From: a virus
Strand: one strand, 5' to 3'
Length of the DNA stretch: 30,995 nt
Virus record (IMG/VR): IMGVR_UViG_3300023184_000370
Location: 1-30,995 of that record
Positions 1 to 23,977 of this stretch are shown in pieces (position 1 is the first letter of the stretch; each line of letters begins with the position of its first letter). Position numbers and translations under genes: made by a program. The notes beneath the pieces were generated by a model. That model searched no databases and was not told the DNA's origin. It saw nothing but the letters and a program-made list of their open reading frames with translations.

Positions 1-3000
1 TCTATACCCACTACTTCAAATGATCCGTCAGCTAGTACATTGAGTAGATTCCATCCACCTCCCGCACTGGTATTAACTTTAACTAAAATTTGATCACCTG
101 CGGCCGCTGGGAGTTTTAATGCGTCAGGCAATGTATCTACTACATATTCAATCACCGTAGTATCATCATATCCACTTGCATACCAATCAATATAATCCCA
201 ATAGAGACTAGTTTTATAACTTTGTATTCTAACTATATCCCAGGTACCATCCGCTTGTAATTCATGCAAGGTCCAAAGATTATCCTGTGTTGTATTTTGT
301 TCAACTAATACTTTATATCCTGTAGATAACGTAGTTGTATCAATATAATTTAAATCTTCTTCAGTAGCAATAGCAAGATCATATTCTCCTAGTTTAAAAC
401 TAGGTCGCTCCTCGGCTGAATTTAATGTTGTTAAATCGTATTGTCGTGTTATAGGTTTAGTTATCAATACACTATTAACATAGTCAATTAGATCACTCAT
501 TGCTCTTAAGCGATCAATAAACATACTTTGTCTTGGTCTGATACTAATACCATACCTATCTGCAGAACTTAACTTAGGGTCAGGAACAACGCGACCGAGT
601 ACATCCAACCCAGCTAAACTGTCTATCATCTTGTCGCTGATCTTATTAGGCACTAAACTAATAGGATTTGATTTTTGTATTAATTCGTATTCACTATGGA
701 TTACACTAGTGTTTTTAATTAATTCATAATCAAGATGTAGGATTGTATTTTGTGCTGATAAATATTTGCCGACATTATAAACTATAACAGCATTTTTCTC
801 AATAATGGCCGCGTAAGAAATACTTTGACCTTTTGGATCACTGATGTAGTTTGCTACTGTTTGTATTGGTAGACTACGTGTTGGATTATTTGCATCAAGA
901 CTAGTTTTATTTGTGACCCAGAAATAATACAAACTACCAATGATGTTGGTATTTGGATCTACTCTTAGGATTTCAACATATTGACTATCATCAGCATACT
1001 TAGGTATGCCATCATACCCAGCAGCAATATACCCACTAGGTAATACTGTTGACTCTACCCACTCACAGACCTCAACTACGCTACCTGGGAATAGTCTACC
1101 CCAATTGATACTGCGATATGTTAAGCTACCTTGTTCGTAGTCTATAAAGCGAACTTGACTAAGATTCCACCAAACTTGACCATTCTGGTCGGCACCCCAA
1201 TAAAAATTAGTGTTAGCATTTGTACCACGATTATAAACAGCAGGATCATATTCTGTCTTGTAGGTAATTTCCTGATCAGCAACTCCTAAGATCTTACCTT
1301 TAGCAGGATCAATAAATTCTAAATTAGTTAAAATAGTGTTGGTTAAATTGCTGTATAAGAAAATCCTATTTACAGATTCGACATCAACTTTATCTTGTTG
1401 ATATCTAATTAAATTCCACCCACGGGTTAATGTTGGGTTGGCAAATATGTAAATACTACCTGCATTTGTTAATGAAGTATCATCCCCTGGTGCGCTGACT
1501 ATAATATTAGTACCGATTATATCAACAGCAGCACCAAATCTATCTCCTGTGTTTAATTCATCGTTGGGATCATTAGGATCTACATTAGGAAGTCTTAATT
1601 GTTGTGCAAAACTATATCGTCCTGGATTTTCAACAGCATTACGTGGATCATCATATAATTCATAAATGTAAACGCTACCACTACCCGTCACTCCATCAAA
1701 GAAGTTTGTGCTAGTTTGATCTAAGGTAGTAGAGGCTGTGTCAAATGTAGCATAGGATCTTGTCGTACCACGTTCACTGCCAATGACTAACATGTAGGCA
1801 TTTTGCGCTAGAACAACTTTATTACCAAAATACTCACCAGGAGTATGATATGGGTTAACAATAATCTGCATATAGGCAAATATACGCATGTCTGCTGCCG
1901 CATACACACCGGCACTGCCTGCGGTATTAGTACCCGATAAGATACGTAATAGATTTTTTGCAACAGTTTTATCAGAATTTAATCTTAATGTATTATTTTC
2001 AATTGATGCCGTAACCCCTAATACACCGGCGGTGTTGATGTTTGTTACTAAATCATTCAATGACGCAACATTAGATGACGGAGTACTAATATTAGCCACT
2101 GTAATTTCAAAGTTGTCTAGTCGTATCTTATCACCAGTTTTGAATGTTGGATTTACTGTGTATCCATTATTGGTACCATATAGTCTACCTCTGTTGTGGA
2201 ATTTCCAAACAGCGCCGGTATTATATGTAGATCCAGCATCATAGTATGGAGCTCCTACATAGATAGCGCAGTTATTACTACAAATTGTAAGATCAGTACC
2301 AAATGCCGCATTAGCTTGGATAGAATCCGTGCCTCCTGTCAGGCTATTAACACCAACTAATGTTTCTAATAGATTAAACTGATTTGTTTCAATATACACT
2401 ACTTTACCAATTGCTGGAGGATCAGTGAACCTAATGCTATTAGAAGTTAGTACAGAATAATTATCAACCTCAACATTATCAATAGTAACACGGTGTACAA
2501 TATCTATAGTACCTGTTGTTGTATAATCTGATGTGCCGGTTGAATTAAATGCTTCAATAACACGATCATAAACATAAACAGCACCAGCACCCTGTATCCA
2601 AGTGTTACCAACAAGAACATTAGCATTTGGGGCACCAACCCCAAGCTGTGCACCATCAAGACTGCTATCCATCGCAGCACCAAATTGGCTGCTTGTTGGT
2701 CCTTGGATAGTATTTGATAATGTGTAATAAGGTTGTTGAGTAATTACGTATACATCTTGAGCTATATTGCCTGTAAATGTAATTGTATTTCCGCTTAGAG
2801 TATAATCTAAATTAGGAATAAACACCCTATTAGAATTTGTTACTAGTAATGATTCTGCAGCATTAGCTACGTTGGGACTAAAGCTAGTAGTAATAGTACT
2901 AGTATTTGATATATTATAAAGTATATTAGCGTAGGTCCCAGAATCAACGTTGTTGATATAGACATTGGCCGCTGTATTACCTGAGGTAAATCCAGTTAGA

Positions 3001-6000
3001 GTGGTAACTATCAGATTAGATGCCCAGTTGGCACCAACTAATGTGTTTCCTGTATATGATAATATAGTAGCCGTCGCGCCTGTGCTAGGATTTGAAATAA
3101 TAGCTCCATTAGCGACACTGATATTTGATCCAAGACGTATAGTATTGCGATCATTAATTGATATTGTTTGTTGCTGTAATGAAACATGTGTGTTTAAACC
3201 GTAAACATACACGCGATCATTACCAGGTGCACCTACGTATAACCAGGTGCCGTGTTGATCAAGTGAAATACTAGATCCAAATCTATCACCGGCTCCATAT
3301 ACCGCATTACCAGACCATAACACCTGTGGTCTACTAAAGTTAGTAGTACCGTTGACTCTATTATAGACATAAACAACACCAATATTACCATAACTACCAG
3401 GGGCGCCTACAGCTACTTTATCAATAGCTTGATCAATACAAGTACCAAATTCTCGCATAGTTACTAGAGCATTGCCAGATTCTGGTCTTAGGGTAAATCC
3501 GTTTACATATTCACCTACATAGTTTTTATCAAAGGTATTAACACGTCCTGTGGCTTCTTCAACTCCTCCACTATAGTACGGTGAAGAATTTGCGTAAGGA
3601 CTGCCAACTGCCGCTAGCAATCCGTCATAACTTAGTTTTACACTAGTCCCAAACCCATCATTGGCTTTATATTCTGAACTTGATTTTATTAAGGTTTGAT
3701 CATATGACCACGATTCGGTCTTTTCATATACTTTCCAGGTGCCGCTCGGTGAGTCATATGATTGCCCGTTAGTGGTTGTAGTCGCCGCATCATCGTCGAT
3801 CCAAATCTTATCACCCACACGCCACCTGTGCAATGGGTGTGTTAATCCATAGACCCTAGAATCTTCCATATAGGTAAATCGTAAACTAGCAAGTGTAAAT
3901 ATAACTCCGTAGCCTGTTAAAGTATTAAGGCCAGCTAAATTAGCCGCAGCACCTAGATACTTAACAGTAATTCTATTAAGATCAGGCACAGAATAAACTT
4001 GATAGAATCCATTGAAATTTGTATTAAATCCTTTTATTAAAAATATGTCATTCTCTACTAACCCGTGTGGGCTATTTGAAGTCCAAGTAATATATCCGTC
4101 TAAGGCATTTGTTAATGTTGTGACATAGTTGTCTGTTTCAGATACCCTATATACATTCCATTTACCATCAAAATCTTTGGCACACCAGATAGTATATCCA
4201 ATGCCTATATCAGCAAGACGATTATCTAAATCAACATAGTTAGCAATATCATATATGGTTGTTGATACATCATCGAGATTAACATACCCGGCGGTCAATA
4301 TGTCATTGTCATAGTCACTGTGCGCATCTCTGTCTAAGGCAATATTTCCAATGAATCCGTCTGTAGATTTATATAATTGAGATTTATTAAATATTGTTAT
4401 CCCGTCACCTTTGTTACCGTTACCAGCATCAACAAATTCTGCTACAGCTGGATTTACAGAGAATGCTTTTTCGTCTAGAGCAATTTCTACATAAGGATTA
4501 GATGTTAATGCGCCATACTCACCTGTACGCACTGCCCATTCTTCATAAAAACTAATATTGCCTGATAAATTATTAAAGTTTGCCTTGGTCAATGCATCAA
4601 CTGCATTGGTTGAGCCTTTTTGTTTGATATATCCTTTATAAAATTCAATCTGTGTTGTTTCACTTAGCCCAAGGTCAGCGAGGTATTGTCTTGGTTTATA
4701 CCCTATTAGACCATGACTATATGCTAGTTGGTTATTGTCGTGTAACTGTCCATAACTATCATAGAAGCTTTGTGAGCCCACTGCTATCGTAGAGAAGTTA
4801 CTTAATAATCCAGTTTGTATTTCTGATGATGACAACTGTTTCCAAACGGCAAAATTAAAATCAGTAGTACCAGCAACATTATTAAGAGCAACATAATATT
4901 GATTTTTAAACAATATTAATTCACCTTTAAGATAATCTGCGCCTGGCTGCCATGATTGGATAGTTTTACTGTTATAGATGAATCCTGGTGCGTGTAGACT
5001 ACCATCCCAAAGATCAGTTTTCTGCCCAATTAATTTTAATCTGTACTGGCGATTCCCTAGTTCTGGTTTGTATACAACATCGTTGAATACTGTGGTATTA
5101 TCAAATGTTAACACATGCTCATATTGTATTAAATTCAGTTCAACTAATGCTAATACATTGTCATCAGTTAATGTAACTTTAAAACCAGTAGGGCTACGTA
5201 AGATTTGATATCCTGTATTTTTTACCAGATTAAAGTTTTGATCTACTATTTTACTACCGTGTTGGCTATCAGTGATCTCATCTACTATATTACCAACAGT
5301 GGTTAGGCTTATAGAATTAGTCACAGGACTCATTACTATGATACTTCCAGTTTTCCAACCTTGTTGTGCCCAGAATAAGAATTCCTTAACTGATAATTTA
5401 AAGTTTCTCGTTTCGCCTAGATCACCATCTCTATCATTGAACGTAAACCCTTGTGCAACGAGATATCTCTCATAGCTAATTAAGAAATCAACTACCTGTT
5501 GTTGATTTTTAAATTCATATCCGTATGGTATGGTTAATTTAACTTTTTGATAGTTGTTAAATACCGTGCCAGAACTGTTTAGTACGGTGATCTTATAACC
5601 GTTGTTATTGACCACACTTGGTATGATAGTAAAGTAAGGACTATTAAGATTATATCCTCTAACACTATAGCCATTGGTAGTTTTTTCAACTATAACTGCA
5701 CTGTATGTGATCTTATCAATAGGAGTTGATTTATACAGGACAACATCATAGTTCTCATTTGGCAGCATGATACTAGCATTGGTGCTAGTTGGACTACTTT
5801 GTTCTGCTAGGATCTGTAGATATTTCTTGTCACTGAATCCTGCCATCTTATATGCTAGTTTGACATTATAGTCTTTAAGCATGGTGGTAATTTTAGTGCT
5901 AGGGTTTATGCCTAAATTTCTTAAATAATCTGCGATCCAGTTTAAATAACCTGCTCCTCTACTAACAGTACCTGAACTAGCATCACCGTTATATGTTATG

Positions 6001-9000
6001 TCAGTCTGTCTCACATGATGATTATCTAACGTGAGGTATTGATTTAGTTCATAATTATATTGTATCTTATACGTGTCAATGAACTGTCCAAAATATACGG
6101 CTGGTTTGGCCATGGCCACTGCCTGCTGAACTGCGAACGGAAAGTCACTGCTGGTACGCCAGGCCCACTCAACTGGACCTAGTTGTCCAACCGCCCAAGA
6201 GGTAGCCGCATTTTTTCCATTGGTCGCTTTGGCTATTACCTGTGCCGGACTTAATAGATATCCGTTGTCATCTACTGGAATAACTTGGCTCAGACCAAGA
6301 CGACGATAGTTTGGATCGATTCCTGGACCATAGCCGGCGTCTTGGGTAGCTCTTATACCATCACGTATCAATCCTGCTTCTAAGTCGTCCCATAATAATT
6401 TATTACCGCCAGTATATGGTCCTGGGCCATAATATCCTTCCCACCAATCTGGCATGGTAGAAAAACCTAACATCTCCCATGGACGTGTATGTGGATATAT
6501 TGTATCATAGAAATATTGATAAACAGCTCGCCAACTGCCTTGCATATATTCGCCGTCGAGACGATCAACAAACCTAGAATAATTCCAGGTAAATTGATCA
6601 TTGCTTTCAAATGACTCATTTGAAGTAAACCCTACTCGATTATTTCCAACCCAGGTTAGGAAACTCTTAGATAATATATTCCACATTTCAACATAACTAT
6701 ATCCAGTATCTCTAAATTTACCAGGTACTACGCTGAATATGTCCTGGTATGCTCCACTATCTGGTAATTTAATATTGTTATAGATACGTAGTTCTAATTC
6801 TAATAGAAAATCATCTCTATAGTCATCAAATGCTGGAATGATGCTACCATCATGTCCACGTAATACATTTATAGTTGTTCTATATGTGTCATCTTCGACT
6901 ATCTCTGGTTTAAATTTAGGATATGCACCAATCTTTGTCGGGGTTTCTGGTACATAGCAACCATCGGTATTTGCATATTCTACAATAGTTATAATATCGT
7001 CAACGGCTAAGGTGATCGTGACATCATTGAATGTAATTGCTGGTCTGTTAGCATCAAAAGTATAATCAAATCCTAAAATTAATTGTTCATCATTTAAATA
7101 TATCAACACTGCTTGGTTGCTTAATGTCTCACTTGAGAACACACTAGTGATTTCATAGCTTAATACCAATGGATCAAATACTGTATAAGTTATAGTATTT
7201 TTCAGGGTACCGTATGGTATCATGTCACTGTAGAACCACGGTGATGATGCAGTCTTATTAATATTAATTTGTTTAAGGATTAGGTCAACACTACCGATAG
7301 GATCTGCAGGATCTATTCCTGATAAACTCGCACTTAGTTCAAGGAATTTATTTTTAAATTTGCTATATTCTCTTTGAGCAAATTGTACAGCATCAACGAA
7401 ATTAGCCTGTGGGTCTAATAGGAATAATTCTGCATATGGTAATGGTGCACTGTGTTGTAAAATGCTGCCGCCCTGCTGTTTGAATTCAACGTCGCGGAGA
7501 TTACATGCCCCTAATATATCACCAATGATATTAGTACTATTCTTGCTTAATTCTACCACATGATTTCTAATCTGTCCTAGAGTTAGATCTGTGATGTCAA
7601 CGTTCTGTGCATTGAGATCTAAGTTCAATGGAATTCCATAATGACCTAGAACACTAACTTCAGAACTGTAGACTTCCACATCAATTATATCACCTTCTGC
7701 CAATGTTGTTGATAATGTTAATTTGTTATCAGTACTTAAACTCCATTTATCTTGTTTAAGATATGTTTTGTTTTGACAGACTTTAACATAGGGAATAGTA
7801 TTTGTATTATTATGTATCGATTGTGCTTTTGGTGTGATATCTAAGACAAACGGGCTGTTAGTACCATCATATTCAAAAGTTATTAATTGGTATTGGCGAC
7901 TAGGTTCAGATACTGTGCGCCAAGTATTTTTATTAGCAGTAGTATTTCTATCGACGATAGCTTGCATAAACCCAATGTTGATATTTTTTGTATAGGTCGT
8001 TTGGCCACTAACATATTCAAATGTATCAGTATTAAAGTAATTAGAGAAAAGGATATCTCCCTGACTTTGGAAACTTCTATAGCCCAGTGAGAATCCCAAT
8101 ACAGCATCATCTGTGCCTGATGTGCTCCTTTGATAGCCAAAAACTTTTGTACCAACAAAAGTACTACGTGGATAGTAGTCAGTGTTAGATAAACTCCTTC
8201 CATCATTGTCATATACATCAAATAACGGATCTTGTTGTAGACTAGTTTTTTGTTGGCTTTCTATCCAATTGGACCCATCGTACCACCAGGCACTGCCTTT
8301 ATACTGCCCTGATTTAACAACCACAGAATCCCACTCATCTGCATCACCATCATCAGCTATGGTTAATTTAACGTGTTTAGCACCTGTAGGTAATCCAAGA
8401 GTATCAACGTCAAATTGTACAAGATTGATCACATAAATTTTATCTCTAACCAACGGATCTAGGTCTGAGGCAAACAATACACGCATACCATCAAACACCG
8501 TTACACCAAATAAGCCGTCACCTATAAATTTAACTTGGTCATTGGTACCAACTAATACTCCATCATAATAAACCTTTGCTGGGAATACTGTGGTGTCATA
8601 GGTTATGGCTCCACCATCATTTAATATCTGTCCTTCGAGTTCATTGAATGCATCTGTGGTATTAGTATCCAATATATCAATATACTTCTTACCAATGCGA
8701 CCATGATTGAATAATTGCAGATCACCTTCAAATTGTACGATAGGTCGTTGGGCACGCAGTTGTTGATCAAGGATTAGTACCTCATCATTGTATCCTGCTG
8801 CGGCTTTTATAACATCAACATGGAACCAACGATTATTACGTGCCCAGGCATTTAAGTCTAGACTATCTCTCTTGATAGTAATATAGTCAGGGAATACTGT
8901 TTCAGCAAATGCATCATATACGGCTGTCCCAGATGCTATGCCTGTACCAGTCACAGTCATACCTTTAGTAATATCTGTAACCAAATCAAATGTAGTGATC

Positions 9001-10601
9001 TTGATTGATCCTACAGCTATTTCAGTATTTGTTTCTACAGACATATCACCAATGGTGATCATCGTTCCACCAGGAATTGCGGCAGTGGTCGCAGTGTCTA
9101 ATATTATCTGTTGTATTGGATAGTTGGTAGCGATCTCATCATTGAATGGCTCAGGAGTTACTAGTAATGTAGTATCAACTAATCTGATGCTATCACCAAC
9201 ATTTTCTACGTAGTAGGTATTGTTTTGATATGTTGCTGGAGTAACATCAATATCAAATTGTATTTTTAATCCGCTGGTAAATTCTACACCGTTAGGGCTG
9301 GTATAATTAGCCAGACCTAAAATATCATCCTCAACATCAATGGTGAAATCGTTATAGTCTACTATCTTAATCTTAGTATAGATATCACCACGTGTACCAT
9401 CTTGTATATATAGATTATCTAAGGTGCAGGTAATCAGTGGCATGCGTTCAAAGAATCCTGTATATTCTCTATAGAACTCTTGATTAGCATTTACTAGGCC
9501 GTATCTGACATAGACTTTTTCATCCAATGCTACACTTTGATGTGGATAAGCATTGATTAAATAATCATCACCTGATGGTATTAATTGTATCTTCCAAATG
9601 CCATATCTATCAGCTTCAGCAACAACATCACCTTTATCATATTCTATAGTAATGCTGTCTGTTTCGCCTGCCACTGTCCATGCTTCTTCACCGTAGTTTG
9701 TGAGAGATTCTTGATCAACGAAGATCACTGTCTTGCCATCCAATTGACCTGTGATGCCAGCATACTGTGGATAGTCTGCGATAAAGTCGCTTAACAATCT
9801 GTTATGTAAATTTGTGAATGCTAAAGGAACAGCATAGTCTACACTTGCTACCAATGGCATCGCTAGGAAACGATCTTGTGCGTCTTTTTGCGGTACATGG
9901 AATACTATATCACCAGACATAGCCCCATTGTTTTCTACCCCTAGGACATCTCTACTGCTGATGGTTGGAGTCGCGTTTAATTTACCATCTATGCCTAGCT
10001 CACTTTGTATCCAAAATTCACTTGCTTGATCTACAGTGAAAGTATATGTGCCCCCACGTGCTAGTACCAGAGTATTATTTTTAATTCCACCAATATTATA
10101 ATCGTAGGTATTTTCATTATCGTTGCGAATTACTTCAAATGTTTTAATTAATTCAACACCCGAGGTATTAACCTGTACTACAGCTGGGCCGTTTGGTAAC
10201 CAATAGTATTGACCAAAATTTACAAACTTGTCAAAACTTATCTTAGGATCAAAGCTGTAGTATTCGCTGGCAAATAATCTGCTGTGATCATTAATATATC
10301 CACCGTAATACTTTACCTTGTCAAGAAAGTCAATATAGCTAGCAAGGAAAATAGTATTACCTTGTGCATCTTTTATAATTGTAGCAGGTTCAAGTTGATA
10401 ATTTTGTCTATCAGCAGAATCTTCAGTGATATAACTATCACCATTGGCAAATGTGGGAGCAAACTTACGTCCAATATAACCATAAAGATTTTTAAGGACT
10501 GGCTCTGATACCAGTTGATCTAAAGTAGCACTCAGGAACTTGTCATTGACATCAGTTCTAAATACGCCAGGTAGTAAATTTATACTCTTTCTTGCGGCCA
10601 T
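1..10601 (-). CDS. Giant virion/baseplate-associated structural protein, C-terminus beyond window
   Basis: The gene starts at ATG 10601 (MAARKSINLLPGVFRTD) and stays open to the left edge, giving at least 3533 codons. I translated stretches near 10600-9400, 8200-7250, 6600-3400 and 3300-1; all read as normal protein in one frame. Near residues 185-270 is a beta-rich module (WIQSELGIDG, TISSRDVLGVENNG). A globular central part follows (for example LPNENYDVVLYKSTPID). Seven FG-GAP repeats occupy about residues 2315-3060. The last residues seen are GGGWNLLNVLADGSFEVVGI. It lies 32 nt behind gp6 in the baseplate operon; in T4 that place belongs to gene 7 (1032 aa, baseplate wedge), so a peripheral baseplate, tail-fibre or adsorption role is likely. 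The function is inferred from position and repeats, not from a recognised family. Confidence 0.88.
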   Translation of the reverse strand, partial: MAARKSINLLPGVFRTDVNDKFLSATLDQLVSEPVLKNLYGYIGRKFAPTFANGDSYITEDSADRQNYQLEPATIIKDAQGNTIFLASYIDFLDKVKYYGGYINDHSRLFASEYYSFDPKISFDKFVNFGQYYWLPNGPAVVQVNTSGVELIKTFEVIRNDNENTYDYNIGGIKNNTLVLARGGTYTFTVDQASEFWIQSELGIDGKLNATPTISSRDVLGVENNGAMSGDIVFHVPQKDAQDRFLAMPLVASVDYAVPLAFTNLHNRLLSDFIADYPQYAGITGQLDGKTVIFVDQESLTNYGEEAWTVAGETDSITIEYDKGDVVAEADRYGIWKIQLIPSGDDYLINAYPHQSVALDEKVYVRYGLVNANQEFYREYTGFFERMPLITCTLDNLYIQDGTRGDIYTKIKIVDYNDFTIDVEDDILGLANYTSPNGVEFTSGLKIQFDIDVTPATYQNNTYYVENVGDSIRLVDTTLLVTPEPFNDEIATNYPIQQIILDTATTAAIPGGTMITIGDMSVETNTEIAVGSIKITTFDLVTDITKGMTVTGTGIASGTAVYDAFAETVFPDYITIKRDSLDLNAWARNNRWFHVDVIKAAAGYNDEVLILDQQLRAQRPIVQFEGDLQLFNHGRIGKKYIDILDTNTTDAFNELEGQILNDGGAITYDTTVFPAKVYYDGVLVGTNDQVKFIGDGLFGVTVFDGMRVLFASDLDPLVRDKIYVINLVQFDVDTLGLPTGAKHVKLTIADDGDADEWDSVVVKSGQYKGSAWWYDGSNWIESQQKTSLQQDPLFDVYDNDGRSLSNTDYYPRSTFVGTKVFGYQRSTSGTDDAVLGFSLGYRSFQSQGDILFSNYFNTDTFEYVSGQTTYTKNINIGFMQAIVDRNTTANKNTWRTVSEPSRQYQLITFEYDGTNSPFVLDITPKAQSIHNNTNTIPYVKVCQNKTYLKQDKWSLSTDNKLTLSTTLAEGDIIDVEVYSSEVSVLGHYGIPLNLDLNAQNVDITDLTLGQIRNHVVELSKNSTNIIGDILGACNLRDVEFKQQGGSILQHSAPLPYAELFLLDPQANFVDAVQFAQREYSKFKNKFLELSASLSGIDPADPIGSVDLILKQININKTASSPWFYSDMIPYGTLKNTITYTVFDPLVLSYEITSVFSSETLSNQAVLIYLNDEQLILGFDYTFDANRPAITFNDVTITLAVDDIITIVEYANTDGCYVPETPTKIGAYPKFKPEIVEDDTYRTTINVLRGHDGSIIPAFDDYRDDFLLELELRIYNNIKLPDSGAYQDIFSVVPGKFRDTGYSYVEMWNILSKSFLTWVGNNRVGFTSNESFESNDQFTWNYSRFVDRLDGEYMQGSWRAVYQYFYDTIYPHTRPWEMLGFSTMPDWWEGYYGPGPYTGGNKLLWDDLEAGLIRDGIRATQDAGYGPGIDPNYRRLGLSQVIPVDDNGYLLSPAQVIAKATNGKNAATSWAVGQLGPVEWAWRTSSDFPFAVQQAVAMAKPAVYFGQFIDTYKIQYNYELNQYLTLDNHHVRQTDITYNGDASSGTVSRGAGYLNWIADYLRNLGINPSTKITTMLKDYNVKLAYKMAGFSDKKYLQILAEQSSPTSTNASIMLPNENYDVVLYKSTPIDKITYSAVIVEKTTNGYSVRGYNLNSPYFTIIPSVVNNNGYKITVLNSSGTVFNNYQKVKLTIPYGYEFKNQQQVVDFLISYERYLVAQGFTFNDRDGDLGETRNFKLSVKEFLFWAQQGWKTGSIIVMSPVTNSISLTTVGNIVDEITDSQHGSKIVDQNFNLVKNTGYQILRSPTGFKVTLTDDNVLALVELNLIQYEHVLTFDNTTVFNDVVYKPELGNRQYRLKLIGQKTDLWDGSLHAPGFIYNSKTIQSWQPGADYLKGELILFKNQYYVALNNVAGTTDFNFAVWKQLSSSEIQTGLLSNFSTIAVGSQSFYDSYGQLHDNNQLAYSHGLIGYKPRQYLADLGLSETTQIEFYKGYIKQKGSTNAVDALTKANFNNLSGNISFYEEWAVRTGEYGALTSNPYVEIALDEKAFSVNPAVAEFVDAGNGNKGDGITIFNKSQLYKSTDGFIGNIALDRDAHSDYDNDILTAGYVNLDDVSTTIYDIANYVDLDNRLADIGIGYTIWCAKDFDGKWNVYRVSETDNYVTTLTNALDGYITWTSNSPHGLVENDIFLIKGFNTNFNGFYQVYSVPDLNRITVKYLGAAANLAGLNTLTGYGVIFTLASLRFTYMEDSRVYGLTHPLHRWRVGDKIWIDDDAATTTTNGQSYDSPSGTWKVYEKTESWSYDQTLIKSSSEYKANDGFGTSVKLSYDGLLAAVGSPYANSSPYYSGGVEEATGRVNTFDKNYVGEYVNGFTLRPESGNALVTMREFGTCIDQAIDKVAVGAPGSYGNIGVVYVYNRVNGTTNFSRPQVLWSGNAVYGAGDRFGSSISLDQHGTWLYVGAPGNDRVYVYGLNTHVSLQQQTISINDRNTIRLGSNISVANGAIISNPSTGATATILSYTGNTLVGANWASNLIVTTLTGFTSGNTAANVYINNVDSGTYANILYNISNTSTITTSFSPNVANAAESLLVTNSNRVFIPNLDYTLSGNTITFTGNIAQDVYVITQQPYYTLSNTIQGPTSSQFGAAMDSSLDGAQLGVGAPNANVLVGNTWIQGAGAVYVYDRVIEAFNSTGTSDYTTTGTIDIVHRVTIDNVEVDNYSVLTSNSIRFTDPPAIGKVVYIETNQFNLLETLVGVNSLTGGTDSIQANAAFGTDLTICSNNCAIYVGAPYYDAGSTYNTGAVWKFHNRGRLYGTNNGYTVNPTFKTGDKIRLDNFEITVANISTPSSNVASLNDLVTNINTAGVLGVTASIENNTLRLNSDKTVAKNLLRILSGTNTAGSAGVYAAADMRIFAYMQIIVNPYHTPGEYFGNKVVLAQNAYMLVIGSERGTTRSYATFDTASTTLDQTSTNFFDGVTGSGSVYIYELYDDPRNAVENPGRYSFAQQLRLPNVDPNDPNDELNTGDRFGAAVDIIGTNIIVSAPGDDTSLTNAGSIYIFANPTLTRGWNLIRYQQDKVDVESVNRIFLYSNLTNTILTNLEFIDPAKGKILGVADQEITYKTEYDPAVYNRGTNANTNFYWGADQNGQVWWNLSQVRFIDYEQGSLTYRSINWGRLFPGSVVEVCEWVESTVLPSGYIAAGYDGIPKYADDSQYVEILRVDPNTNIIGSLYYFWVTNKTSLDANNPTRSLPIQTVANYISDPKGQSISYAAIIEKNAVIVYNVGKYLSAQNTILHLDYELIKNTSVIHSEYELIQKSNPISLVPNKISDKMIDSLAGLDVLGRVVPDPKLSSADRYGISIRPRQSMFIDRLRAMSDLIDYVNSVLITKPITRQYDLTTLNSAEERPSFKLGEYDLAIATEEDLNYIDTTTLSTGYKVLVEQNTTQDNLWTLHELQADGTWDIVRIQSYKTSLYWDYIDWYASGYDDTTVIEYVVDTLPDALKLPAAAGDQILVKVNTSAGGGWNLLNVLADGSFEVVGI
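1441..3659 (-). repeat. Seven FG-GAP (integrin-alpha-like) beta-propeller repeats in the giant protein
   Basis: Within the giant gene, seven copies of a pattern recur: F-G-x-x-(V/I/M/L), then about 12 residues on (V/I)-G-(A/S)-P or similar, then (V)-Y-(V/I)-(Y/F). First copies: residue ~2315 DGFGTSVKLSYDGLLAAVGS; ~2384 EFGTCIDQ with VAVGAPGSYG and VVYVYNR; ~2438 GDRFGSSISLDQHG with YVGAPGNDRVYVYG; ~2640 SQFGAAMDSSLDG with GVGAPNAN and GAVYVYDR. Later copies: ~2766 AAFGTDLTICSN with YVGAPYYD and GAVWKFHN; ~2920 EYFGNKVVLAQN with VIGSERG and GSVYIYEL; ~3020 DRFGAAVDIIG with VSAPGDD and GSIYIFAN. Seven is the blade number of the integrin-alpha propeller. The spacing is uneven (about 55-200 residues), so extra domains are probably inserted between blades. 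Confidence 0.75.
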
Positions 10602-10633: not shown

Positions 10634-13600
10634 TTATGCAATTACCGCTTGGTTGATCTGTGCGGCAGTAATGGCAGTGATAATCTGTACGTTGTCAACT
10701 GTTGCAGCACTAACAATGATCTCATTGTATTCTGCATTAATTTGTAGTAAACTACCAAAGGTTTCACTAGTACTAGTCGGAACAATAGTCACTGATGCGA
10801 TATTGGGTGCCAATACACTATGTAAATACGCACTCAGTTCACTGAAGTAAAATGTTTCGCCAAAGTCCCAATTAGCAATGTCAAAATATGTATTGATCGC
10901 TGCAATTACACTTGTTTTAACATCATTATCACTGACTACTACACTAGAATTTTTAACAACTTTAAATGTTGCTCTCAACGATGCAGCTGCTTTGTCACCA
11001 AATATAGGTTTAAATTTTGCTGGGTTGTAAATAATTGTATCACTGATACTCTTATATTTTTCTAAACTACTATAATCCACACCTAACATCTCAGGAGTAG
11101 GTGCAATTGGTTCAGAGACTGTGCCGGTAGTATCTTGTACCCAGGCTAGATAATCTGTAGCATGAGTTTTAGTTAGAATATACAAATCAACGATATTATT
11201 GGGGCTCGGATCAATACGACGATTGTTTGGGCTGCTGTGTCTATATTGGAAATACAAATCCTGTCGGCCTATTTTTGCAGTATAACCAGTAACAGCATTA
11301 AGAGTATAACTTGCTCCACTAACTGTTAGTTGATAAAATGTATCGGTAGGAATAATATAAAACAGTTGTCCATTTTGATACAATGTAGCTTCTGCTTGTG
11401 CCGCAATTAATGTAGCATAAGTGCTAACAACTAGACTATTACTAACTGGAGTTTGTATAACAAAGTTATCATACCCATAGGTGTTTTGGACATAGACATA
11501 TTTCTCTTGTTCGTTGGTGTCTGGACTTACTAATAATTCAAACAATTCAGGATTATCAGGAATACCATCATCATTACTATCGGGGAATGTAACTAAGATT
11601 TTACTTGGATTAGCATAGCCATCTACTTCAACAATATTATTATAAATGTGCCAGGTATAATCTAATGCCAACGAATTAGTATCATCGGGATTAGTGTTTA
11701 TTTTTAACACTTTGATCTGATCTTTAATAACAAATCCAGTGCGTGGGTCGTAAATCTTAACACGATCATCAAAGTAGAAATTAGTTTCTTTTACACTTTC
11801 AAAGACGTATTCTAATCCACGGTAATACACTGTATAGGTTTGACCTACCGTTTGGAAACGTATCAGCCAACTACTATCAAGTGCGCCTGCACCGGTATTA
11901 CCAGCATATCCTAGACTAAAATTACCAGTATCTAAATCTTCCGGTAATACAATAGTCCATTCAGAATTTGTTACATCATAACGTAGACCAAAATCTTTGT
12001 AGGCCTGTGTATATGATACTATATCAGCAATTAATGTTGCCGAGAATTCATTATTAAATACCGGAAATACTCTTACAGCTTCTGCCTCAGATGGTACTAC
12101 CTGGTTTAATGTGATTGGGCCACTACCATTAGATAAATTACCTTCACCACCATTGGTACCATCTGCTAGTACCTGTATTACTTGTGCATAAATGTAGTAT
12201 TTGTCTCCGCTATTACGAGGAGTGCCTGACTGTATAGTATTACGTGCATCAAAATATTTGCCTGTACCTGCTGAGAATTTTACGATAGCACCTTGTTTGA
12301 TATAACTTTTGCTGTCAGCAACATATTGACCAACTTGTAAAATTTTATCAGTATCATCATAAAAATAACCAGTGATACCTGCATCGTCTAATGATTTATT
12401 CCAATAGGTATTGGTTACGCCAATGGCATTATATTTAGAATAGAAAAATTGTAGAGTTTCTTTTTCTGACGCTAGAGGTTTTATTTGATTATTAACGACT
12501 CTATAGATATCATTGACTGTGTTAAAACTAAAATTAAATGAATTAACTGTTTCGTCTCTATACAAGATACCGTCTTGACAGAAAATATTAGTTGACGAGT
12601 ACTTACCTGTAGTGTCGATAACGTCTAGGTAACGGCTCACACCACTACTTGTACGGTTGACCGCTTTGACTTTTAACACACTGTTAAATAATGTATAAGG
12701 TAAGATATTATAGTCTTCACCTGTTACCATACGATCTTGTGTGTAATATTGTTGTGGTGCTTTTTGGCGCACATCATCTACTGTTTCACGAGTGGTTGCA
12801 TTAGTTACAGTATAACGTAAGCTAGCACGGATATTAATAGTTTCTGTACGACCGGTGCGGCTAACATAATTGATAGGAACAACAATACCACGCATTTCCC
12901 CAGGAGAAATCTTATAACTCAATCCGTTACTAACTCTATAGTAAAGTTTATAACGACCTTGTGGAATATTAGCAAATGCACCATCACCAAAGATTAGATC
13001 AACTTGATCACCGGCACGGGTACTAACCTGATAGATATTTTTATTAGTAGTTTTATTATAGATAATATTAGTAGCACCTACACTAGGAACCTGGGTCCAT
13101 TGGGTACTAAAATTGCCATTCTTATCTAAGCTGTATAGCCAGATATCAGTGTTGTTAATATTATTGACATTTAAATTATAAACACGATTAGGTAGGCTTT
13201 CTTGGAAATTGATATCTAGGCTTTGTAGTGCACCTTGTTTAAAATATAAGAAAAATCCGGTATTGTTACTGCCATTGCCTAGATTATCATTTCTATATAA
13301 TAGATTAAAACTGCTATTAGGTCGAGGGGCAGTTTCATAGATATAACTTTGTCCTGATGACGTTGGACTAACAACTTCAAATGATACTTGGCTTCCTTCA
13401 ATTGATGCACTAACAGCATAAGTAGCTGTTAGATTTGGTACTAGATTAATTTGATATTCTTCAGTAGTAATTCCGTTAAGTAGTTGACTATTGCTAGGTT
13501 TTCCCACTGCTTGATTGGCATTAAGGCCAGCATTAACCACTGCGGTAAATTGTTCTTGCCAGTTATCATTAGCACTGTCTGCCCAGTTAATTACTAGGCC

Positions 13601-14014
13601 AGCAAGGTTAAGTCCGTTACTGTCATAGACAGTTTCTGTTGTGCTTATGCTGTCTACTTTTAAATATCCGCTAGCAGGGATATTACGTTTAGGATTATAG
13701 CTGATCAGACGTGCAAGTTTTAATACACTGTCACGACGTTGTGCTGTGTCAATGAAATTTTCACGGGCATTTAAATCGCCACGGAATGCTAATGATTGTC
13801 CTAGGAAAGCGATTAAGTCGATTAAGGCAATAAACTCACTGGACTCAATAAAGTCGTTAAAATCTTCTGGATAGTATAAACGTAGATAATCAACCATTGA
13901 CTTACGAAGTGTTTCGTAGTCGTAGCTTTGAAAGTCCGCATTACGGAAGGTTTGATATAGTTTAGTCCAGTCTTCAGCAACTAGTAAACTGCTTTGTCTT
14001 GTAGTAATCGCCAT
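10634..14014 (-). CDS. gp6: Baseplate wedge subunit gp6
   Basis: This 1126 aa protein has the gp6 N-terminus typical of T4-like marine phages: a helical opening (DWTKLYQTFRNADFQSYDYE), then DYLRLYYPEDFNDFIESSEF and LIDLIAFLGQSLAFRGDLNA. A baseplate-J-like C-terminal region includes YNPAKFKPIFGDKAAASLRA and DFGETFYFSELSAYLHSVLA. gp6 forms the ring of dimers that ties the baseplate wedges around the hub. T4 gp6 is 660 aa; the extra length here is a beta-rich middle (about residues 350-950). Start ATG 14014 has the Shine-Dalgarno sequence AGGAAA 7 nt upstream. That site lies inside a 10 bp hairpin, listed separately. gp25 ends 53 nt upstream and the giant virion gene starts 32 nt downstream, all on the same strand. 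Confidence 0.93.
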   Translation of the reverse strand: MAITTRQSSLLVAEDWTKLYQTFRNADFQSYDYETLRKSMVDYLRLYYPEDFNDFIESSEFIALIDLIAFLGQSLAFRGDLNARENFIDTAQRRDSVLKLARLISYNPKRNIPASGYLKVDSISTTETVYDSNGLNLAGLVINWADSANDNWQEQFTAVVNAGLNANQAVGKPSNSQLLNGITTEEYQINLVPNLTATYAVSASIEGSQVSFEVVSPTSSGQSYIYETAPRPNSSFNLLYRNDNLGNGSNNTGFFLYFKQGALQSLDINFQESLPNRVYNLNVNNINNTDIWLYSLDKNGNFSTQWTQVPSVGATNIIYNKTTNKNIYQVSTRAGDQVDLIFGDGAFANIPQGRYKLYYRVSNGLSYKISPGEMRGIVVPINYVSRTGRTETINIRASLRYTVTNATTRETVDDVRQKAPQQYYTQDRMVTGEDYNILPYTLFNSVLKVKAVNRTSSGVSRYLDVIDTTGKYSSTNIFCQDGILYRDETVNSFNFSFNTVNDIYRVVNNQIKPLASEKETLQFFYSKYNAIGVTNTYWNKSLDDAGITGYFYDDTDKILQVGQYVADSKSYIKQGAIVKFSAGTGKYFDARNTIQSGTPRNSGDKYYIYAQVIQVLADGTNGGEGNLSNGSGPITLNQVVPSEAEAVRVFPVFNNEFSATLIADIVSYTQAYKDFGLRYDVTNSEWTIVLPEDLDTGNFSLGYAGNTGAGALDSSWLIRFQTVGQTYTVYYRGLEYVFESVKETNFYFDDRVKIYDPRTGFVIKDQIKVLKINTNPDDTNSLALDYTWHIYNNIVEVDGYANPSKILVTFPDSNDDGIPDNPELFELLVSPDTNEQEKYVYVQNTYGYDNFVIQTPVSNSLVVSTYATLIAAQAEATLYQNGQLFYIIPTDTFYQLTVSGASYTLNAVTGYTAKIGRQDLYFQYRHSSPNNRRIDPSPNNIVDLYILTKTHATDYLAWVQDTTGTVSEPIAPTPEMLGVDYSSLEKYKSISDTIIYNPAKFKPIFGDKAAASLRATFKVVKNSSVVVSDNDVKTSVIAAINTYFDIANWDFGETFYFSELSAYLHSVLAPNIASVTIVPTSTSETFGSLLQINAEYNEIIVSAATVDNVQIITAITAAQINQAVIA

Positions 14015-14067: not shown

Positions 14068-14445
14068 TTAAGCTGCTGTTAGAGTATTGCTTTGATTGTT
14101 AAACTGTAGATTAAGCAAGTTAGTTTGATTTGTCTGTACGTAGCGTAGTTGTAGTTCTACTTGTATGCCTTGATCGTATTCTGTTATCACAACATTGTCT
14201 ATTGAAATCCTAGGATCGTAACTAGCAATGGCTTTGATATCAGTGACTATAACGCTTTTTAGGTCTTCTGTTAAGGGTTCATGGACTATGTTCCAAATAA
14301 TAGTTCCAAAGTCAGGATTCATTAGTTTCTCACCCTTGCGGATGTAAAAATGATTGATCAAATCTTGTTTAACCAATTCAAAGTCTGTAAGGCGGAACTT
14401 GCGAGTGCGCCCTACTGTAGAAAATCCTCTGTACATGATAGCCAT
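14068..14445 (-). CDS. gp25: Baseplate wedge subunit gp25 (gpW/gp25 family)
   Basis: This 125 aa protein is close in length to T4 gp25 (132 aa). The family core is visible: RKFRLTDFELVKQDLINHFY, then GEKLMNPDFGTIIWNIVHEP and KSVIVTDIKAIASYDPRISI, followed by beta strands (IDNVVITEYDQGIQVELQLR). gp25 starts contractile-sheath assembly on the baseplate wedge and is among the most conserved parts of contractile injection systems. The start ATG 14445 lies 8 nt after the gp5 stop, with AGGA of the gp5 end serving as ribosome binding site. The order gp5-gp25-gp6 places it in the wedge part of the operon. Confidence 0.93.
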   Translation of the reverse strand: MAIMYRGFSTVGRTRKFRLTDFELVKQDLINHFYIRKGEKLMNPDFGTIIWNIVHEPLTEDLKSVIVTDIKAIASYDPRISIDNVVITEYDQGIQVELQLRYVQTNQTNLLNLQFNNQSNTLTAA

Positions 14446-14453
14446 ATAGATAT

Positions 14454-16460
14454 TTATCCTGCTTTAACTGCCGCTACTTGCGGTGCTAAGACTGATATAG
14501 CAAACTTACCTTTTTGGAAATAGGTATCGCCAGTTGTGCCATTGGCATCTGCACCTCCGCCGCCTTTACGCCAGGTATTTGCACCACCTGCTCCTAATAG
14601 GTGACTGGCAGCCAACATTCCGCCAACATCTTCTGGTGGCATATCTGCTGTAATTGCACCGTTCTTAACCATAGCAGTGTAATTGGTTTGAGTATAGGAT
14701 ATCATGGCGCTTTCTTGTACGCTACCATTGCCAAGCCAACTACTCTTATCAGTGATACCATCTTTGCCTGTCCATGAGTTAGGGTTATCTAATTGTGCAT
14801 TACTAGTCACCGATGATTTTACATATCCTTGATCAATCAATGCTTGATATCCCATCTGATATTTGCCTACATAGCCCAATTGATTAGTTGTATTATAGTT
14901 TCCGCCACTTTCACTCTTACCTATCTGTGCTAGATATGCTGTCATCTGATCTTTGCTTAAATTGCCCACTGTACCAGTAGGATCTGGTTGATTACGTAGA
15001 TCTTTTGTTCCAGCTGGTGATTTAACTTCGGTGCCACCAACATTTTTAATAGCGTCAACTGACCCAGTATAGGCTGCTTGTGGGGTAATACCAGAACCTG
15101 CATTTTCAGGATTAAAGAATGCAGGAGTTACTCCGCGATAGAACGGTTCGTGTGTTGGAGCAACTGTGACAATAGTGTTTAGATCTTTATTAGCAATAAC
15201 AAAACCTTTTATTTGTCCTACTCCCACAGTACCACCACTATTATTTAAAATAGTCTGTGCTTCAAGAGCATAGGTTGATCCTACTTTGAGACTCATGCTA
15301 GCACCCGTTTCTACATTAAAACGGCTTCCAGTTTTAAATTCTGCATCACCACTTGCCTCAACCCCTAGGCTACCGGTTAATAGTGTAGTGCGAACAGATT
15401 CTGCTTGTATCTTATTGCCAGCTTTTAAATTGATATTGTTAGCGGCATTGATATTAATATTAGTATCGCTGTGTAGATTTATTTCGCTTTCACTACGAAC
15501 ACTGAATGCCCCTTGGCTGTATGCATTAATACGACCATCGCTGGTTAATTCAATCCAGCTGGTTCCGTCAGCATGTGCAATATATAAAGTATTGCTAGAA
15601 TCATGCATGAGGATCTGATGACCTTTGGCTGTACGTAATCGTACTAGTTGATCTTGCCCTAAGGTAGCTCCATCATCCATGACAAAGACGTGTCCACCTT
15701 TGCGTGATTTAATTTTGTAATATTCTGGTGGTAGTGTATCTGAATTTAGTTTACTAATATAATTCAAATCATCAAACGGATCATTCAAAGGACGACCTGG
15801 GGTACTAATACCAAATACATGACTGGGGCTTTCTCGTTGACTTGAACTACTGATAGCACCACGTATAGGATCTTGATCTAGACCTTGTACTTTTAAGATC
15901 GCAGCTTGTATTTTATGTATGGGTTTTGATAGATTATAGAATGCTGGATTAGTAACATATTCTGCAACGTTTTCATTGAACTCAACCACAGGCGCTGGTG
16001 CGCCTTTATTTCCAACAGCATTAGGACTACCTGCTAGAGCAGGAATCATATGATGACTGAGATTAGGATTAACGCAGGCTAACCAATACCCTCGCGTTGG
16101 GTCACCTGCGATGAATAATACAATAATCTGTACACCAATATCTGGTGGTACCATCCACATACCATAGCTATGATTTACCCCCTCAAATGTATTGTCTGTG
16201 TTTATTGGATCTGATGCAGATTGTTGATGCGAAGTATATCCCATGAACGGGCTAGCATAACTTACTGTGCGCCAATTTAACTGATCATCTTCCGCGGCCC
16301 CAAGATCTGGTATCCATACTTGTAATCGACCACTGCGTGTAGGATCAAGATTGTTTTTAACTATACCAATATAAGGATATGGATCAACACGAGTGGCTAT
16401 CGCTTCTTCTCTGCGTAGATTTTTTATTACCTTGGTACCTGATCTTTGATCTATTGCCAT
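14454..16460 (-). CDS. gp5: Baseplate hub/tail-needle protein gp5 with C-terminal muramidase-like domain
   Basis: 668 aa. Residues about 28-170 are the gp5/VgrG OB-fold (YPYIGIVKNNLDPTRSGRLQ, VWIPDLGAAED, MWMVPPDIGVQIIVLFIAGD, TRGYWLACV). Residues about 255-410 are the needle beta-helix (GGHVFVMDDG, ADGTSWIELTSDGRINAYSQ, NLHSDTNININAANNINLKA). After a Pro/Gly/Thr linker, residues about 505-660 form a lysozyme/transglycosylase-like domain: IGKSESGGNY (candidate catalytic Glu517), GYVGKYQMGYQALIDQGYV and GGMLAASHLLGAGGANTW. gp5 punctures the outer membrane and cuts peptidoglycan during tail contraction. In T4 the lysozyme lies between OB-fold and beta-helix; here it comes last. ATG 16460 follows the upstream stop by 3 nt, with AAGGAA in front. 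Confidence 0.9.
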   Translation of the reverse strand: MAIDQRSGTKVIKNLRREEAIATRVDPYPYIGIVKNNLDPTRSGRLQVWIPDLGAAEDDQLNWRTVSYASPFMGYTSHQQSASDPINTDNTFEGVNHSYGMWMVPPDIGVQIIVLFIAGDPTRGYWLACVNPNLSHHMIPALAGSPNAVGNKGAPAPVVEFNENVAEYVTNPAFYNLSKPIHKIQAAILKVQGLDQDPIRGAISSSSQRESPSHVFGISTPGRPLNDPFDDLNYISKLNSDTLPPEYYKIKSRKGGHVFVMDDGATLGQDQLVRLRTAKGHQILMHDSSNTLYIAHADGTSWIELTSDGRINAYSQGAFSVRSESEINLHSDTNININAANNINLKAGNKIQAESVRTTLLTGSLGVEASGDAEFKTGSRFNVETGASMSLKVGSTYALEAQTILNNSGGTVGVGQIKGFVIANKDLNTIVTVAPTHEPFYRGVTPAFFNPENAGSGITPQAAYTGSVDAIKNVGGTEVKSPAGTKDLRNQPDPTGTVGNLSKDQMTAYLAQIGKSESGGNYNTTNQLGYVGKYQMGYQALIDQGYVKSSVTSNAQLDNPNSWTGKDGITDKSSWLGNGSVQESAMISYTQTNYTAMVKNGAITADMPPEDVGGMLAASHLLGAGGANTWRKGGGGADANGTTGDTYFQKGKFAISVLAPQVAAVKAG

Positions 16461-19946: not shown

Positions 19947-20249
19947 TTATAGACCTAACGCAGCGGTTAGGGTATCCTTTTTGGGAATGTATATAGTAGC
20001 ACCAGGTAGGAAGTCATACACTGGATCTTGTAGAACATTTGGATTACGTACCGAGAATACCCACCAAAGAGACGAATTGCCGTATAAGTCATAGGCTAAT
20101 AGATCTGGACGGTGCTGGTAGATATTATCAATACGATACGCAGTATCACTAGGATCCATTGGTATTACTGGTATATTTGCTACATCTAAGAAAAACGCAA
20201 ACGTTTCTGTGTTAGCATATGGGCTAGTCTTGCTATAATTTACAGCCAT
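19947..20249 (-). CDS. gp53: Baseplate wedge subunit gp53
   Basis: 100 aa, about half the length of T4 gp53 (196 aa) but with the core pattern common in aquatic T4-like phages: YRIDNIYQHRPDLLAYDLYG, then NSSLWWVFSVRNPNVLQDPV and YDFLPGATIYIPKK. The second half is LysM-like. gp53 clamps neighbouring wedges together around the hub. The start ATG 20249 shares a base with the gp48 stop (TAATG), and GGAGGA at the end of gp48 acts as its ribosome binding site, so the two genes are translationally coupled. Confidence 0.88.
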   Translation of the reverse strand: MAVNYSKTSPYANTETFAFFLDVANIPVIPMDPSDTAYRIDNIYQHRPDLLAYDLYGNSSLWWVFSVRNPNVLQDPVYDFLPGATIYIPKKDTLTAALGL

Positions 20250-22256: not shown

Positions 22257-23273
22257 ATGGCTAATCTATTCAAGAAGGCAGCTGTTTTAACGGATATCCA
22301 CTTTGGATTAAAGTCTAACAGTGCCACACACAACGACGATTGTCTTAACTTTGTTAAATGGTTTATAGAAACTGCCCGAGCTGAAGGCTGTGATACCTGT
22401 TTCATGACCGGTGACTGGCATAACAATCGGGCGGCGATCAACATAGTCACACTCAACTACAGTCTTACTGCCCTAGAGTTATTAGGCAAGGCCTTTGATC
22501 GTGTGTTCTTCATCCCAGGTAATCACGATCTCTACTATAGAGATAAACGTGACATCCAATCAGCCGAGTGGGCTAGACATATTCCCAACATTGAGATCAT
22601 CAATGACTTCTACACTGAAGGTGATGTCAGTATCGTTCCGTGGCTAGTTGGTGATGATCATAAGAAACTAGGTAAGATCTCAGCCAAGTATATGTTTGGC
22701 CATTTAGAACTACCGCACTTCTATATGAATGCCATGGTGGCCATGCCGGACACTGGAGAAATCAAAGAAGGTGCGTTCAATGGTGTAGAAAAGGTATTCA
22801 CTGGGCACTTCCATAAACGTCAGACACGCAGCAACATTACCTATATGGGCAACTGTTTCCCGCATAACTATGCAGATGCCGGTGATGATGCTCGTGGTAT
22901 GATGATCATTGAGTGGGGACAAGAGCCTGTGTTCCACACTTGGCCAGGGCAACCTAGATATCGTGTGCTGAACCTAAGTGATGTACTCAAGACTCCTGAA
23001 TCATTATTATTACCAAACATGCACTGCCGTGTTAATCTAGACATTGACATCAGTTACGAAGAAGCGACATTTATCAAAGAAACATTTGTTGGTACGTATC
23101 AATTACGTGAATTAACCTTACTACCGGTTAAGAACATGGATATCGGCCAAGATATTATCTTAGGCAACATCAAATTTGAAAGTATTGACAGTATTGTAAC
23201 CAGCCAATTAACTAACATCGCCAGTGATCATTACGATCCAAATTTATTATTAGATATCTATAGGCATCTATGA
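22257..23273 (+). CDS. gp47: Recombination endonuclease subunit gp47 (Mre11/SbcD-like)
   Basis: 338 aa, the same length as T4 gp47 (339 aa). The metallophosphoesterase motifs appear in order: DIHFG (residues 13-17), GDWHNN, GNHDLYYRD, GHLELP and GHFHKR. These bind the two metal ions of the nuclease site. gp47 with the ATPase gp46 trims DNA ends for recombination-dependent replication and host DNA breakdown. Only one ATG lies before DIHFG, so the start is firm although no ribosome binding site is visible. The last codons overlap the SGNH gene by ATGA. GC is close to 45% in a hand-counted 60 nt line, above the cargo genes nearby. Confidence 0.95.
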   Translation: MANLFKKAAVLTDIHFGLKSNSATHNDDCLNFVKWFIETARAEGCDTCFMTGDWHNNRAAINIVTLNYSLTALELLGKAFDRVFFIPGNHDLYYRDKRDIQSAEWARHIPNIEIINDFYTEGDVSIVPWLVGDDHKKLGKISAKYMFGHLELPHFYMNAMVAMPDTGEIKEGAFNGVEKVFTGHFHKRQTRSNITYMGNCFPHNYADAGDDARGMMIIEWGQEPVFHTWPGQPRYRVLNLSDVLKTPESLLLPNMHCRVNLDIDISYEEATFIKETFVGTYQLRELTLLPVKNMDIGQDIILGNIKFESIDSIVTSQLTNIASDHYDPNLLLDIYRHL

Positions 23274-23977
23274 GGATATATGCTTGTGGTTGCAGTTTTA
23301 CCTATGGCGATGAGTTAAAAAATCCAAACAAATCTGCCTGGCCTGCTAGATTAGCGGAAAAACTATCAGCTACAATTGATAATAATGCAACCAATGGTGG
23401 TACTAATGCTAGGACTTTATATCAAACTATAAAAAACACTCAAGAAAATTATGATTTATATTTAATTTCTTGGACGACATATTCTAGATTTACTTTTTAT
23501 AAAAGCGATAATAATTTTGAAACTAATTTTAATCCCAATTTGGAAAACTCATTGTATGAAAATGAAAATTTTTATTATGATTGGGGTCATAACTTATACA
23601 AATATTGGTATAATGAATTATTTGCATTTAAATTATGGCTACAACAAATTATCCAGTTACAACAAATATTAAAAGATAAAAAATATCTGATGTTGAATAC
23701 CATGGAAAATAATTTATCTAAATGGTTAGCTCCTAAAGAATCTTTTAAAGATTCTGTAAAAGATTTAATTAACATTGATATGATGAATGACGAACAAATC
23801 TTTGACGAATACAAAGAAATACAGTATTATATAAGTCTAATAGACTTTTCTAAATTTTATCGTTGGAATGAATTTTATATTGATCAACTCGCAGATCAAT
23901 TCCCAATTGGTGGGCACGGACATATACTAGAAGATGGGCACGAATATTTGGCTAATTTGATTTATAAACATGTTTAA
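23270..23977 (+). CDS. SGNH/GDSL-hydrolase-like protein inserted between genes 47 and 46
   Basis: 235 aa. The start MRIYACGCSFTYGDEL carries the SGNH block I pattern (GCSFT, candidate nucleophile Ser9). Block III-like NNATNGGTNARTL follows at about 38-50, and the C-terminus GGHGHILEDGHEYLANL resembles block V. In many phage relatives block V reads D-G-H; here that place is G-G-H (residues 214-216), so the catalytic Asp may be missing or supplied by D222. SGNH proteins are esterases or deacetylases acting on acyl or acetyl groups of glycans and lipids. It overlaps gp47 by 4 nt and gp46 by 8 nt. One counted 60 nt line is 20% GC against 45-48% in its neighbours, a sign of recent gain. The substrate is unknown. 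Confidence 0.75.
   Translation: MRIYACGCSFTYGDELKNPNKSAWPARLAEKLSATIDNNATNGGTNARTLYQTIKNTQENYDLYLISWTTYSRFTFYKSDNNFETNFNPNLENSLYENENFYYDWGHNLYKYWYNELFAFKLWLQQIIQLQQILKDKKYLMLNTMENNLSKWLAPKESFKDSVKDLINIDMMNDEQIFDEYKEIQYYISLIDFSKFYRWNEFYIDQLADQFPIGGHGHILEDGHEYLANLIYKHV

Follow-up and report, generated by a model that had tools for sequence, protein, structure and literature searches.

Integrin-like propellers are already known in phages, including in a jumbo-phage protein: gp213 of AP-J-162, a "hemagglutinin", has been modelled as a human-integrin-like propeller (PMC11242549), and unrelated propellers have been described in the nozzles of T7 and SU10 and in phAss-1 (PMC10607447). BFVD also lists FG-GAP proteins, in many entries from giant viruses and some from phages. 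A jumbo-phage overview makes no mention of FG-GAP, propeller or integrin (PMC7824862), and our search of the open-access literature returned no paper combining FG-GAP with "virion structural protein" or "phage tail". In integrin alpha chains themselves, the propeller carries DxDxDG calcium loops in the A–B loops of several blades (PMC3192720), and this loop is a defining feature of integrin-type blades (PMC3192720, PMC8023676). Here, we analyzed a 30,995-base linear IMG/VR viral contig (IMGVR_UViG_3300023184_000370), referred to as the window, in which one open minus-strand frame (3–10601) of at least 3,533 codons runs off the contig end. It encodes a giant virion protein with a predicted seven-bladed FG-GAP propeller set into what reads as the tip of a scaffold hairpin.

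A preliminary description of the window had read seven FG-GAP repeats by eye at positions 1441–3659, corresponding to residues 2315–3053, a span that covers all seven motifs minus the first few residues of blade 1. Profile searches confirmed this reading. Pfam FG-GAP_2 (PF14312) was matched with an E-value of 1.4e-14 in the whole protein and 4e-19 in the region alone, scoring 54.4 bits against a curated cut-off of 23, and was found in all 43 aligned relatives (E ≤ 0.01); the best matches in a PDB profile search were integrin alpha chains (alpha-4, E 5e-10). A blade profile derived from 114 blades taken from divergent relatives, with the window's closest relatives excluded, detected exactly seven blades of 21–47 bits (residues 2297–2360, 2383–2417, 2436–2471, 2625–2681, 2749–2805, 2908–2981 and 3013–3056). 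Among 1,000 shuffled versions of the region, the top score was 10.9 bits and none gave two matches above 8 bits. Because it was a model of the window's own family that first picked out the divergent blades, the test falls short of full independence; the independent support is that of Pfam and the PDB profile search. The FG...GAP expression occurs seven times in the region against 0.026 expected, with no occurrence in the remainder of the protein, and the FG-GAP/Cage motif is present in every blade, being degenerate as GSE in blade 6.

AlphaFold2 modelling of residues 2261–3090 with the 43 relatives yielded a propeller with a predicted local distance difference test (pLDDT) of 83.9 and a predicted template modelling score (pTM) of 0.84. 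Integrin alpha chains filled the top Foldseek ranks for this model (E 2e-10), and VIA aligned integrin aV over about 374 residues at 2.6 Å with a Z-score of about 30, on par with designed and WD40 seven-bladed propellers. In the strand order of the model, the first strand (residues 2299–2304) provides the outer strand of blade 7, which is the usual ring closure. The profiles and the model thus agree with the single closed integrin-type propeller proposed earlier, the fold being known from prediction. The structural part of our reading, i.e., one closed seven-bladed FG-GAP propeller with its inserts and its hairpin site, is predicted with near certainty.

Blade-to-blade distances in the window are 67, 56, 205, 122, 160 and 88 residues, versus 52, 44, 51, 53, 57 and 79 in the compact relative L150 (relatives are cited by locus number). 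The uneven spacing, which had suggested other domains inserted between blades, indeed arises from inserts in the C–D loops of blades 3, 4 and 5, where strands C and D are separated by 154, 58 and 104 residues; these loops hold three small beta-rich domains. L150 has a 380-residue propeller without large inserts, which makes the inserts additions to a core of seven blades. By general propeller topology (PMC3192720), the C–D loops would share a face with the A–B (calcium) loops, opposite the FG-GAP cage side. The predicted layout of the module is as follows, with the evidence for each element in brackets.

1422..3725, minus strand: inserted propeller module, residues 2293–3060, 768 residues; missing here in PA5oct, L104, L174, L177 and L179 (anchor distances)
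3522..3713, minus strand: blade 1 and the N-terminal strand closing the ring as strand D of blade 7, residues 2297–2360 (blade profile, AlphaFold2 strands)
3351..3506, minus strand: blade 2, residues 2366–2417 (blade profile, AlphaFold2)
3186..3329, minus strand: blade 3 strands A–C, residues 2425–2472 (blade profile, AlphaFold2)
2730..3191, minus strand: insert 1 in the blade 3 C–D loop, residues 2471–2624, about 154 residues, 70–248 in relatives (alignment, loop table)
2553..2732, minus strand: blade 4 strands A–C and blade 3 strand D, residues 2624–2683 (blade profile, AlphaFold2)
2385..2558, minus strand: insert 2 in the blade 4 C–D loop, residues 2682–2739, 58 residues (alignment, loop table)
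2184..2381, minus strand: blade 5 strands A–C and blade 4 strand D, residues 2741–2806, the most conserved blade (blade profile, AlphaFold2)
1881..2192, minus strand: insert 3 in the blade 5 C–D loop, residues 2804–2907, 104 residues (alignment, loop table)
1650..1880, minus strand: blade 6 and blade 5 strand D, residues 2908–2984; B–C loop of 32 residues, low confidence (blade profile, AlphaFold2)
1434..1616, minus strand: blade 7 and blade 6 strand D, residues 2996–3056 (Pfam, blade profile, AlphaFold2)

In two of the 43 relatives, insert 3 is similar to the flagellin hook IN motif (PF07196; best E-value 1.9e-5). In L019, the blade 4–5 spacing reaches 604 residues, and its blade 4 C–D loop holds a several-hundred-residue insert of repeated "NITANVGQ.ITQ"-type modules (alignment A1, columns 595–1080); by eye, the window's insert 1 resembles a single module of this type.

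The window propeller shares with the N-terminal propeller of integrin alpha chains (PF01839; aV, a4, a5, aIIb) the fold, the seven blades, an FG-GAP motif in each blade and closure by the N-terminal strand. It differs in its flanks, which are phage scaffold in place of thigh and calf domains, and in having inserts in C–D loops in place of an I domain. Its A–B loops, of 2–5 residues, are too short for the DxDxDG calcium loops of integrins, and because these loops are absent the propeller is a relative in fold, not an integrin. Accordingly, the label "integrin-alpha-like" given in the preliminary description stands for the fold, as judged by the model, Foldseek and VIA, and fails for family membership; we rejected a place among integrins proper. 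The module passes the family cut-off of FG-GAP_2 repeat proteins, from which it differs as a single seven-blade module in a virion-scaffold hairpin with extra domains between its blades. The jumbo-phage "hemagglutinins", namely AP-J-162 gp213 and a related 409-residue Atu_ph07 protein found in this analysis, likewise are integrin-like propellers; these are stand-alone proteins of about 375–409 residues, whereas that of the window lies within a giant baseplate-adjacent protein. As a separate observation, the Sinorhizobium phage Phosso (L001, PV764938.1) has 42 FG-GAP_2 matches at about 48–69 kb. Most of them fall in two further giant frames (3,182 and 3,702 codons), which makes this a reference jumbo phage much richer in propeller repeats beyond its scaffold protein.

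The giant protein itself belongs to the baseplate-gp6-adjacent structural proteins of the RaK2/PA5oct/Atu_ph07 supergroup of jumbo phages. It matches the phrog_10938 "virion structural protein" profile with 1,085.6 bits (best stretch 961–1876), and 60 jumbo-phage records contain homologues, among them PA5oct, RaK2, Atu_ph07, SCTP-2 and Vibrio phage 2.275; relatives with both protein ends present are about 4,000–5,100 residues long. The PA5oct homologue lies directly after the wedge gene and is labelled ESI-MS/MS (electrospray ionization tandem mass spectrometry) in its record, i.e., it was detected in virions. Together with the position after gp6, these data agree with the tail association assumed at the outset. 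PA5oct gp355, RaK2 gp465 and Atu_ph07 gp180 (phrog_10938) have the same scaffold and the same order after gp6 and differ in being without a propeller, the PA5oct hairpin being bare. The scaffold elements are listed below.

3..10601, minus strand: giant baseplate-associated virion structural protein, at least 3,533 residues, ended by the contig edge (open reading frame, phrog_10938, homologues)
5583..6962, minus strand: most conserved scaffold core, residues 1214–1673, the basis of the family tree (alignment with PA5oct, Phosso, Atu_ph07, SCTP-2, Vibrio 2.275 and RaK2)
4884..4952, minus strand: weak CBM5/12-like (carbohydrate-binding module) stretch, residues 1884–1906 (PF02839)
3720..3815, minus strand: left side of the scaffold hairpin (GDKIWIDDDA...GTWKVYEK), residues 2263–2294 (alignment with the uninterrupted hairpin of PA5oct, L174 and L177)
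1395..1421, minus strand: right strand of the scaffold hairpin (GWNLIRYQQ), residues 3061–3069, where the scaffold resumes (alignment with relatives)

The insertion site could be placed by comparison with relatives. When the reference proteins were aligned with a profile of full-length relatives, the match ran to window residue ~2200 and resumed at ~3062, leaving out the propeller. The PA5oct sequence SGKVWIDSINSDNDWAVAVVSGSTITNIRSRQNLVD aligns to window GDKIWIDDDA...GTWKVYEKTESW, then the propeller, then GWNLIRYQQDKVD, and L174, which falls inside the propeller clade, reads GWIANDRVWVNADTQSGATGWAVYTYNGSTWTRTRQQSPSVD, an uninterrupted hairpin. As both sequences run without a break there, the propeller sits in the tip of what, from the alignment, reads as a beta-hairpin. 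The hairpin is also bare in L177, L104 and L179; L165 has 84 extra residues at the same tip, and in L182 (3299–4321) a YHYH domain (PF14240, E 2e-31) lies between the same strands. An insert of SCTP-2 upstream of the hairpin appeared LamG-like by eye, and Pfam found nothing in it. We tentatively suggest that the hairpin tip is a dedicated exchange site, where jumbo phages swap recognition modules in their entirety: an FG-GAP propeller, a YHYH domain, a short beta insert or no module at all. If so, inserting one domain would be enough to re-arm a conserved baseplate arm, in the way that integrins acquired the I domain within a propeller loop. The finding ties an integrin-type adhesion fold to a defined position in a conserved phage baseplate scaffold, one that in nature is also found empty or with other contents. 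The bare, propeller and YHYH hairpins thus offer a clean comparison through which to ask what the module does. We did not find a description of such a seven-blade module in the hairpin of a giant baseplate-adjacent protein, with bare, YHYH and short-insert alternatives.

Searching with the propeller sequence alone found 14 contigs, and the propeller alignment found 80. The scaffold has at least 591 relatives; when 80 loci were fetched with the scaffold core only, 51 had the propeller, 14 were without it and 15 were too truncated for a call. The blade profile gave exactly seven matches above 2 bits in 69 of 90 representatives, the others having more or fewer matches or being truncated, and no blades in members lacking the propeller; the hairpin-anchor distance ranges from 371 to 1,399 residues among relatives, while the count stays at exactly seven blades in most proteins. 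A quick maximum-likelihood tree of the scaffold core (108 rows, several outgroup branches being long) requires three changes of the propeller state, a count that cannot prove direction. One branch with support 99 unites all 90 propeller rows and three rows without it, a pattern consistent with a single gain followed by loss (L174) and replacement (L165/L182). The propeller had no match at E 1e-5 in reference phage genomes, nor in bacterial genome contigs, so that host and donor could not be read off, and no PHROG family covers it. Separately, in L018/L084 (IMGVR_UViG_3300008259_000310) a frame change interrupts the giant gene and part of blade 5 is lacking, possibly through an assembly error.

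Conservation is unevenly spread over the ring in the 43 relatives: the strands of blades 4–6 are mostly near-fixed (0.3–0.75 bits entropy, a few at 1–1.5), blades 7, 1 and 2 and their B–C loops are more variable (about 1–2.5 bits), and the C–D inserts vary widely in length. Such a pattern is compatible with one side kept fixed for docking and another free to change, and by itself does not establish binding. The CBM5/12 stretch of the giant protein (E 0.0063 in the window) is under the curated cut-off of PF02839 and is stronger in relatives, e.g., 1.4e-6 in PA5oct. In Vibrio phage 2.275 (L005, 4890–8753), CBM5/12 is also annotated in the gene preceding the giant protein, in the gp6-like wedge position, which suggests carbohydrate-binding modules on several baseplate proteins.

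In our best explanation, a conserved scaffold runs through this giant protein of RaK2/PA5oct-like jumbo myophages, and one beta-hairpin tip of it carries a whole inserted FG-GAP_2-type seven-bladed propeller. In the model the chain enters from hairpin strand 1, forms the outer strand of blade 7, passes through blades 1 to 7 and leaves into hairpin strand 2; closed by its own ends, the ring can hang off the scaffold as an independent head. Computation supports the propeller, its closure, its inserts, the hairpin site in its bare, propeller, YHYH and short-insert states and the single large propeller clade. Beyond this, the head may be displayed at the periphery of the baseplate and serve docking or recognition, its target being most likely a host cell-surface or extracellular glycan or protein; blades 4–6 would then form the fixed side, and the changing side would comprise the C–D inserts together with the loops of blades 7, 1 and 2. 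Host or matrix recognition by such an exchangeable head would be the most economical function. A peripheral recognition module, such as the receptor- or glycan-binding head considered in the preliminary description, is indirectly suggested, because the propeller is dispensable and swappable, has variable C–D inserts and conserved blades 4–6, and shares its protein with a CBM5/12-like stretch. As a whole, a hairpin-tip propeller in a baseplate-adjacent giant protein acting as a peripheral recognition head is the explanation that we consider probable; for the recognition role taken on its own, we put the chances at about even. For a large set of uncultured jumbo phages, in which the propeller region lacked reference-phage matches, this offers a hypothesis on function.

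Several points count against this explanation. The confident model of the scaffold core (pLDDT 84) found no convincing PDB match (Foldseek best E 0.04, VIA best Z 6.2), and since the core matches no solved baseplate protein, the tail position of the giant protein rests on gene order and PHROG labels. The calcium motif D-x-[DNSG]-x-[DNSG]-G-x-x-[DE] was found in no propeller-bearing representative scanned. All propeller-bearing members are uncultured contigs, and no cultured member was found. Finally, the high conservation of blades 4–6 would equally suit a purely structural role.

The last point leads to the main alternative, in which the propeller is a structural hub within the virion that docks tail proteins (fibres or neighbouring wedges) and never contacts the host. 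Beta-propellers commonly act as interaction scaffolds (PMC8023676), the known phage propellers of the T7 and SU10 nozzles are structural (PMC10607447), and most strands in blades 4–6 have extremely low entropy; however, close relatives do without the propeller at the same site while their scaffold is otherwise visibly unchanged (L174), and one relative has the unrelated YHYH domain in its place; we consider this alternative rather unlikely. An enzyme, e.g., a polysaccharide lyase or glycosidase clearing capsule or matrix, has precedents in the lyases among integrin/VCBS supercluster propellers (RGL11, PMC8023676) and in the depolymerases on jumbo-phage tail fibres (PMC10253068); but integrins and designed or WD40 propellers, rather than enzymes, make up the nearest solved structures in comparisons that included no search aimed at a catalytic centre, and the calcium loops are missing, so we regard this as improbable. 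A reading of the FG-GAP-like motifs as chance matches or degenerate repeats that close no propeller was rejected by the shuffle test of the blade profile and is contradicted by the confident AlphaFold2 model and the VIA comparison, leaving it a negligible chance even though just three of the seven blades pass Pfam individually.

The gene order around the giant gene is consistent with a baseplate-adjacent position of the giant protein. Directly upstream, in the same direction, lies a gp6-like wedge gene, followed outward by further baseplate genes.

10634..14014, minus strand: gp6-like baseplate wedge protein (phrog_10646, phrog_219)
14068..14445, minus strand: gp25 baseplate wedge protein (PF04965 E 3.2e-9, phrog_43)
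14454..16460, minus strand: gp5-like baseplate hub subunit with tail lysozyme (phrog_13211, phrog_27932)
19947..20249, minus strand: gp53-like baseplate wedge subunit (phrog_7145)

When the window order is compared with that of T4, the giant gene, directly after gp6, occupies the position of T4 gp7. No sequence link between the two proteins was found, hhalign giving a probability below 1% for all pieces; the core model has no convincing PDB match. Past the baseplate genes come a late sigma factor and gp47/gp46-like proteins on the opposite strand, the latter two identified from fold and gene order. Between these two recombination genes, positions 23270–23977 on the plus strand encode a DUF6071 protein (E 2e-6). 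After the gp46-like gene, the plus strand encodes two radical SAM proteins and a short-chain dehydrogenase-like protein (25739–29433), and a SegE-like GIY-YIG endonuclease (PF19835, E 3e-37) is found at 29869–30303 on the same strand.

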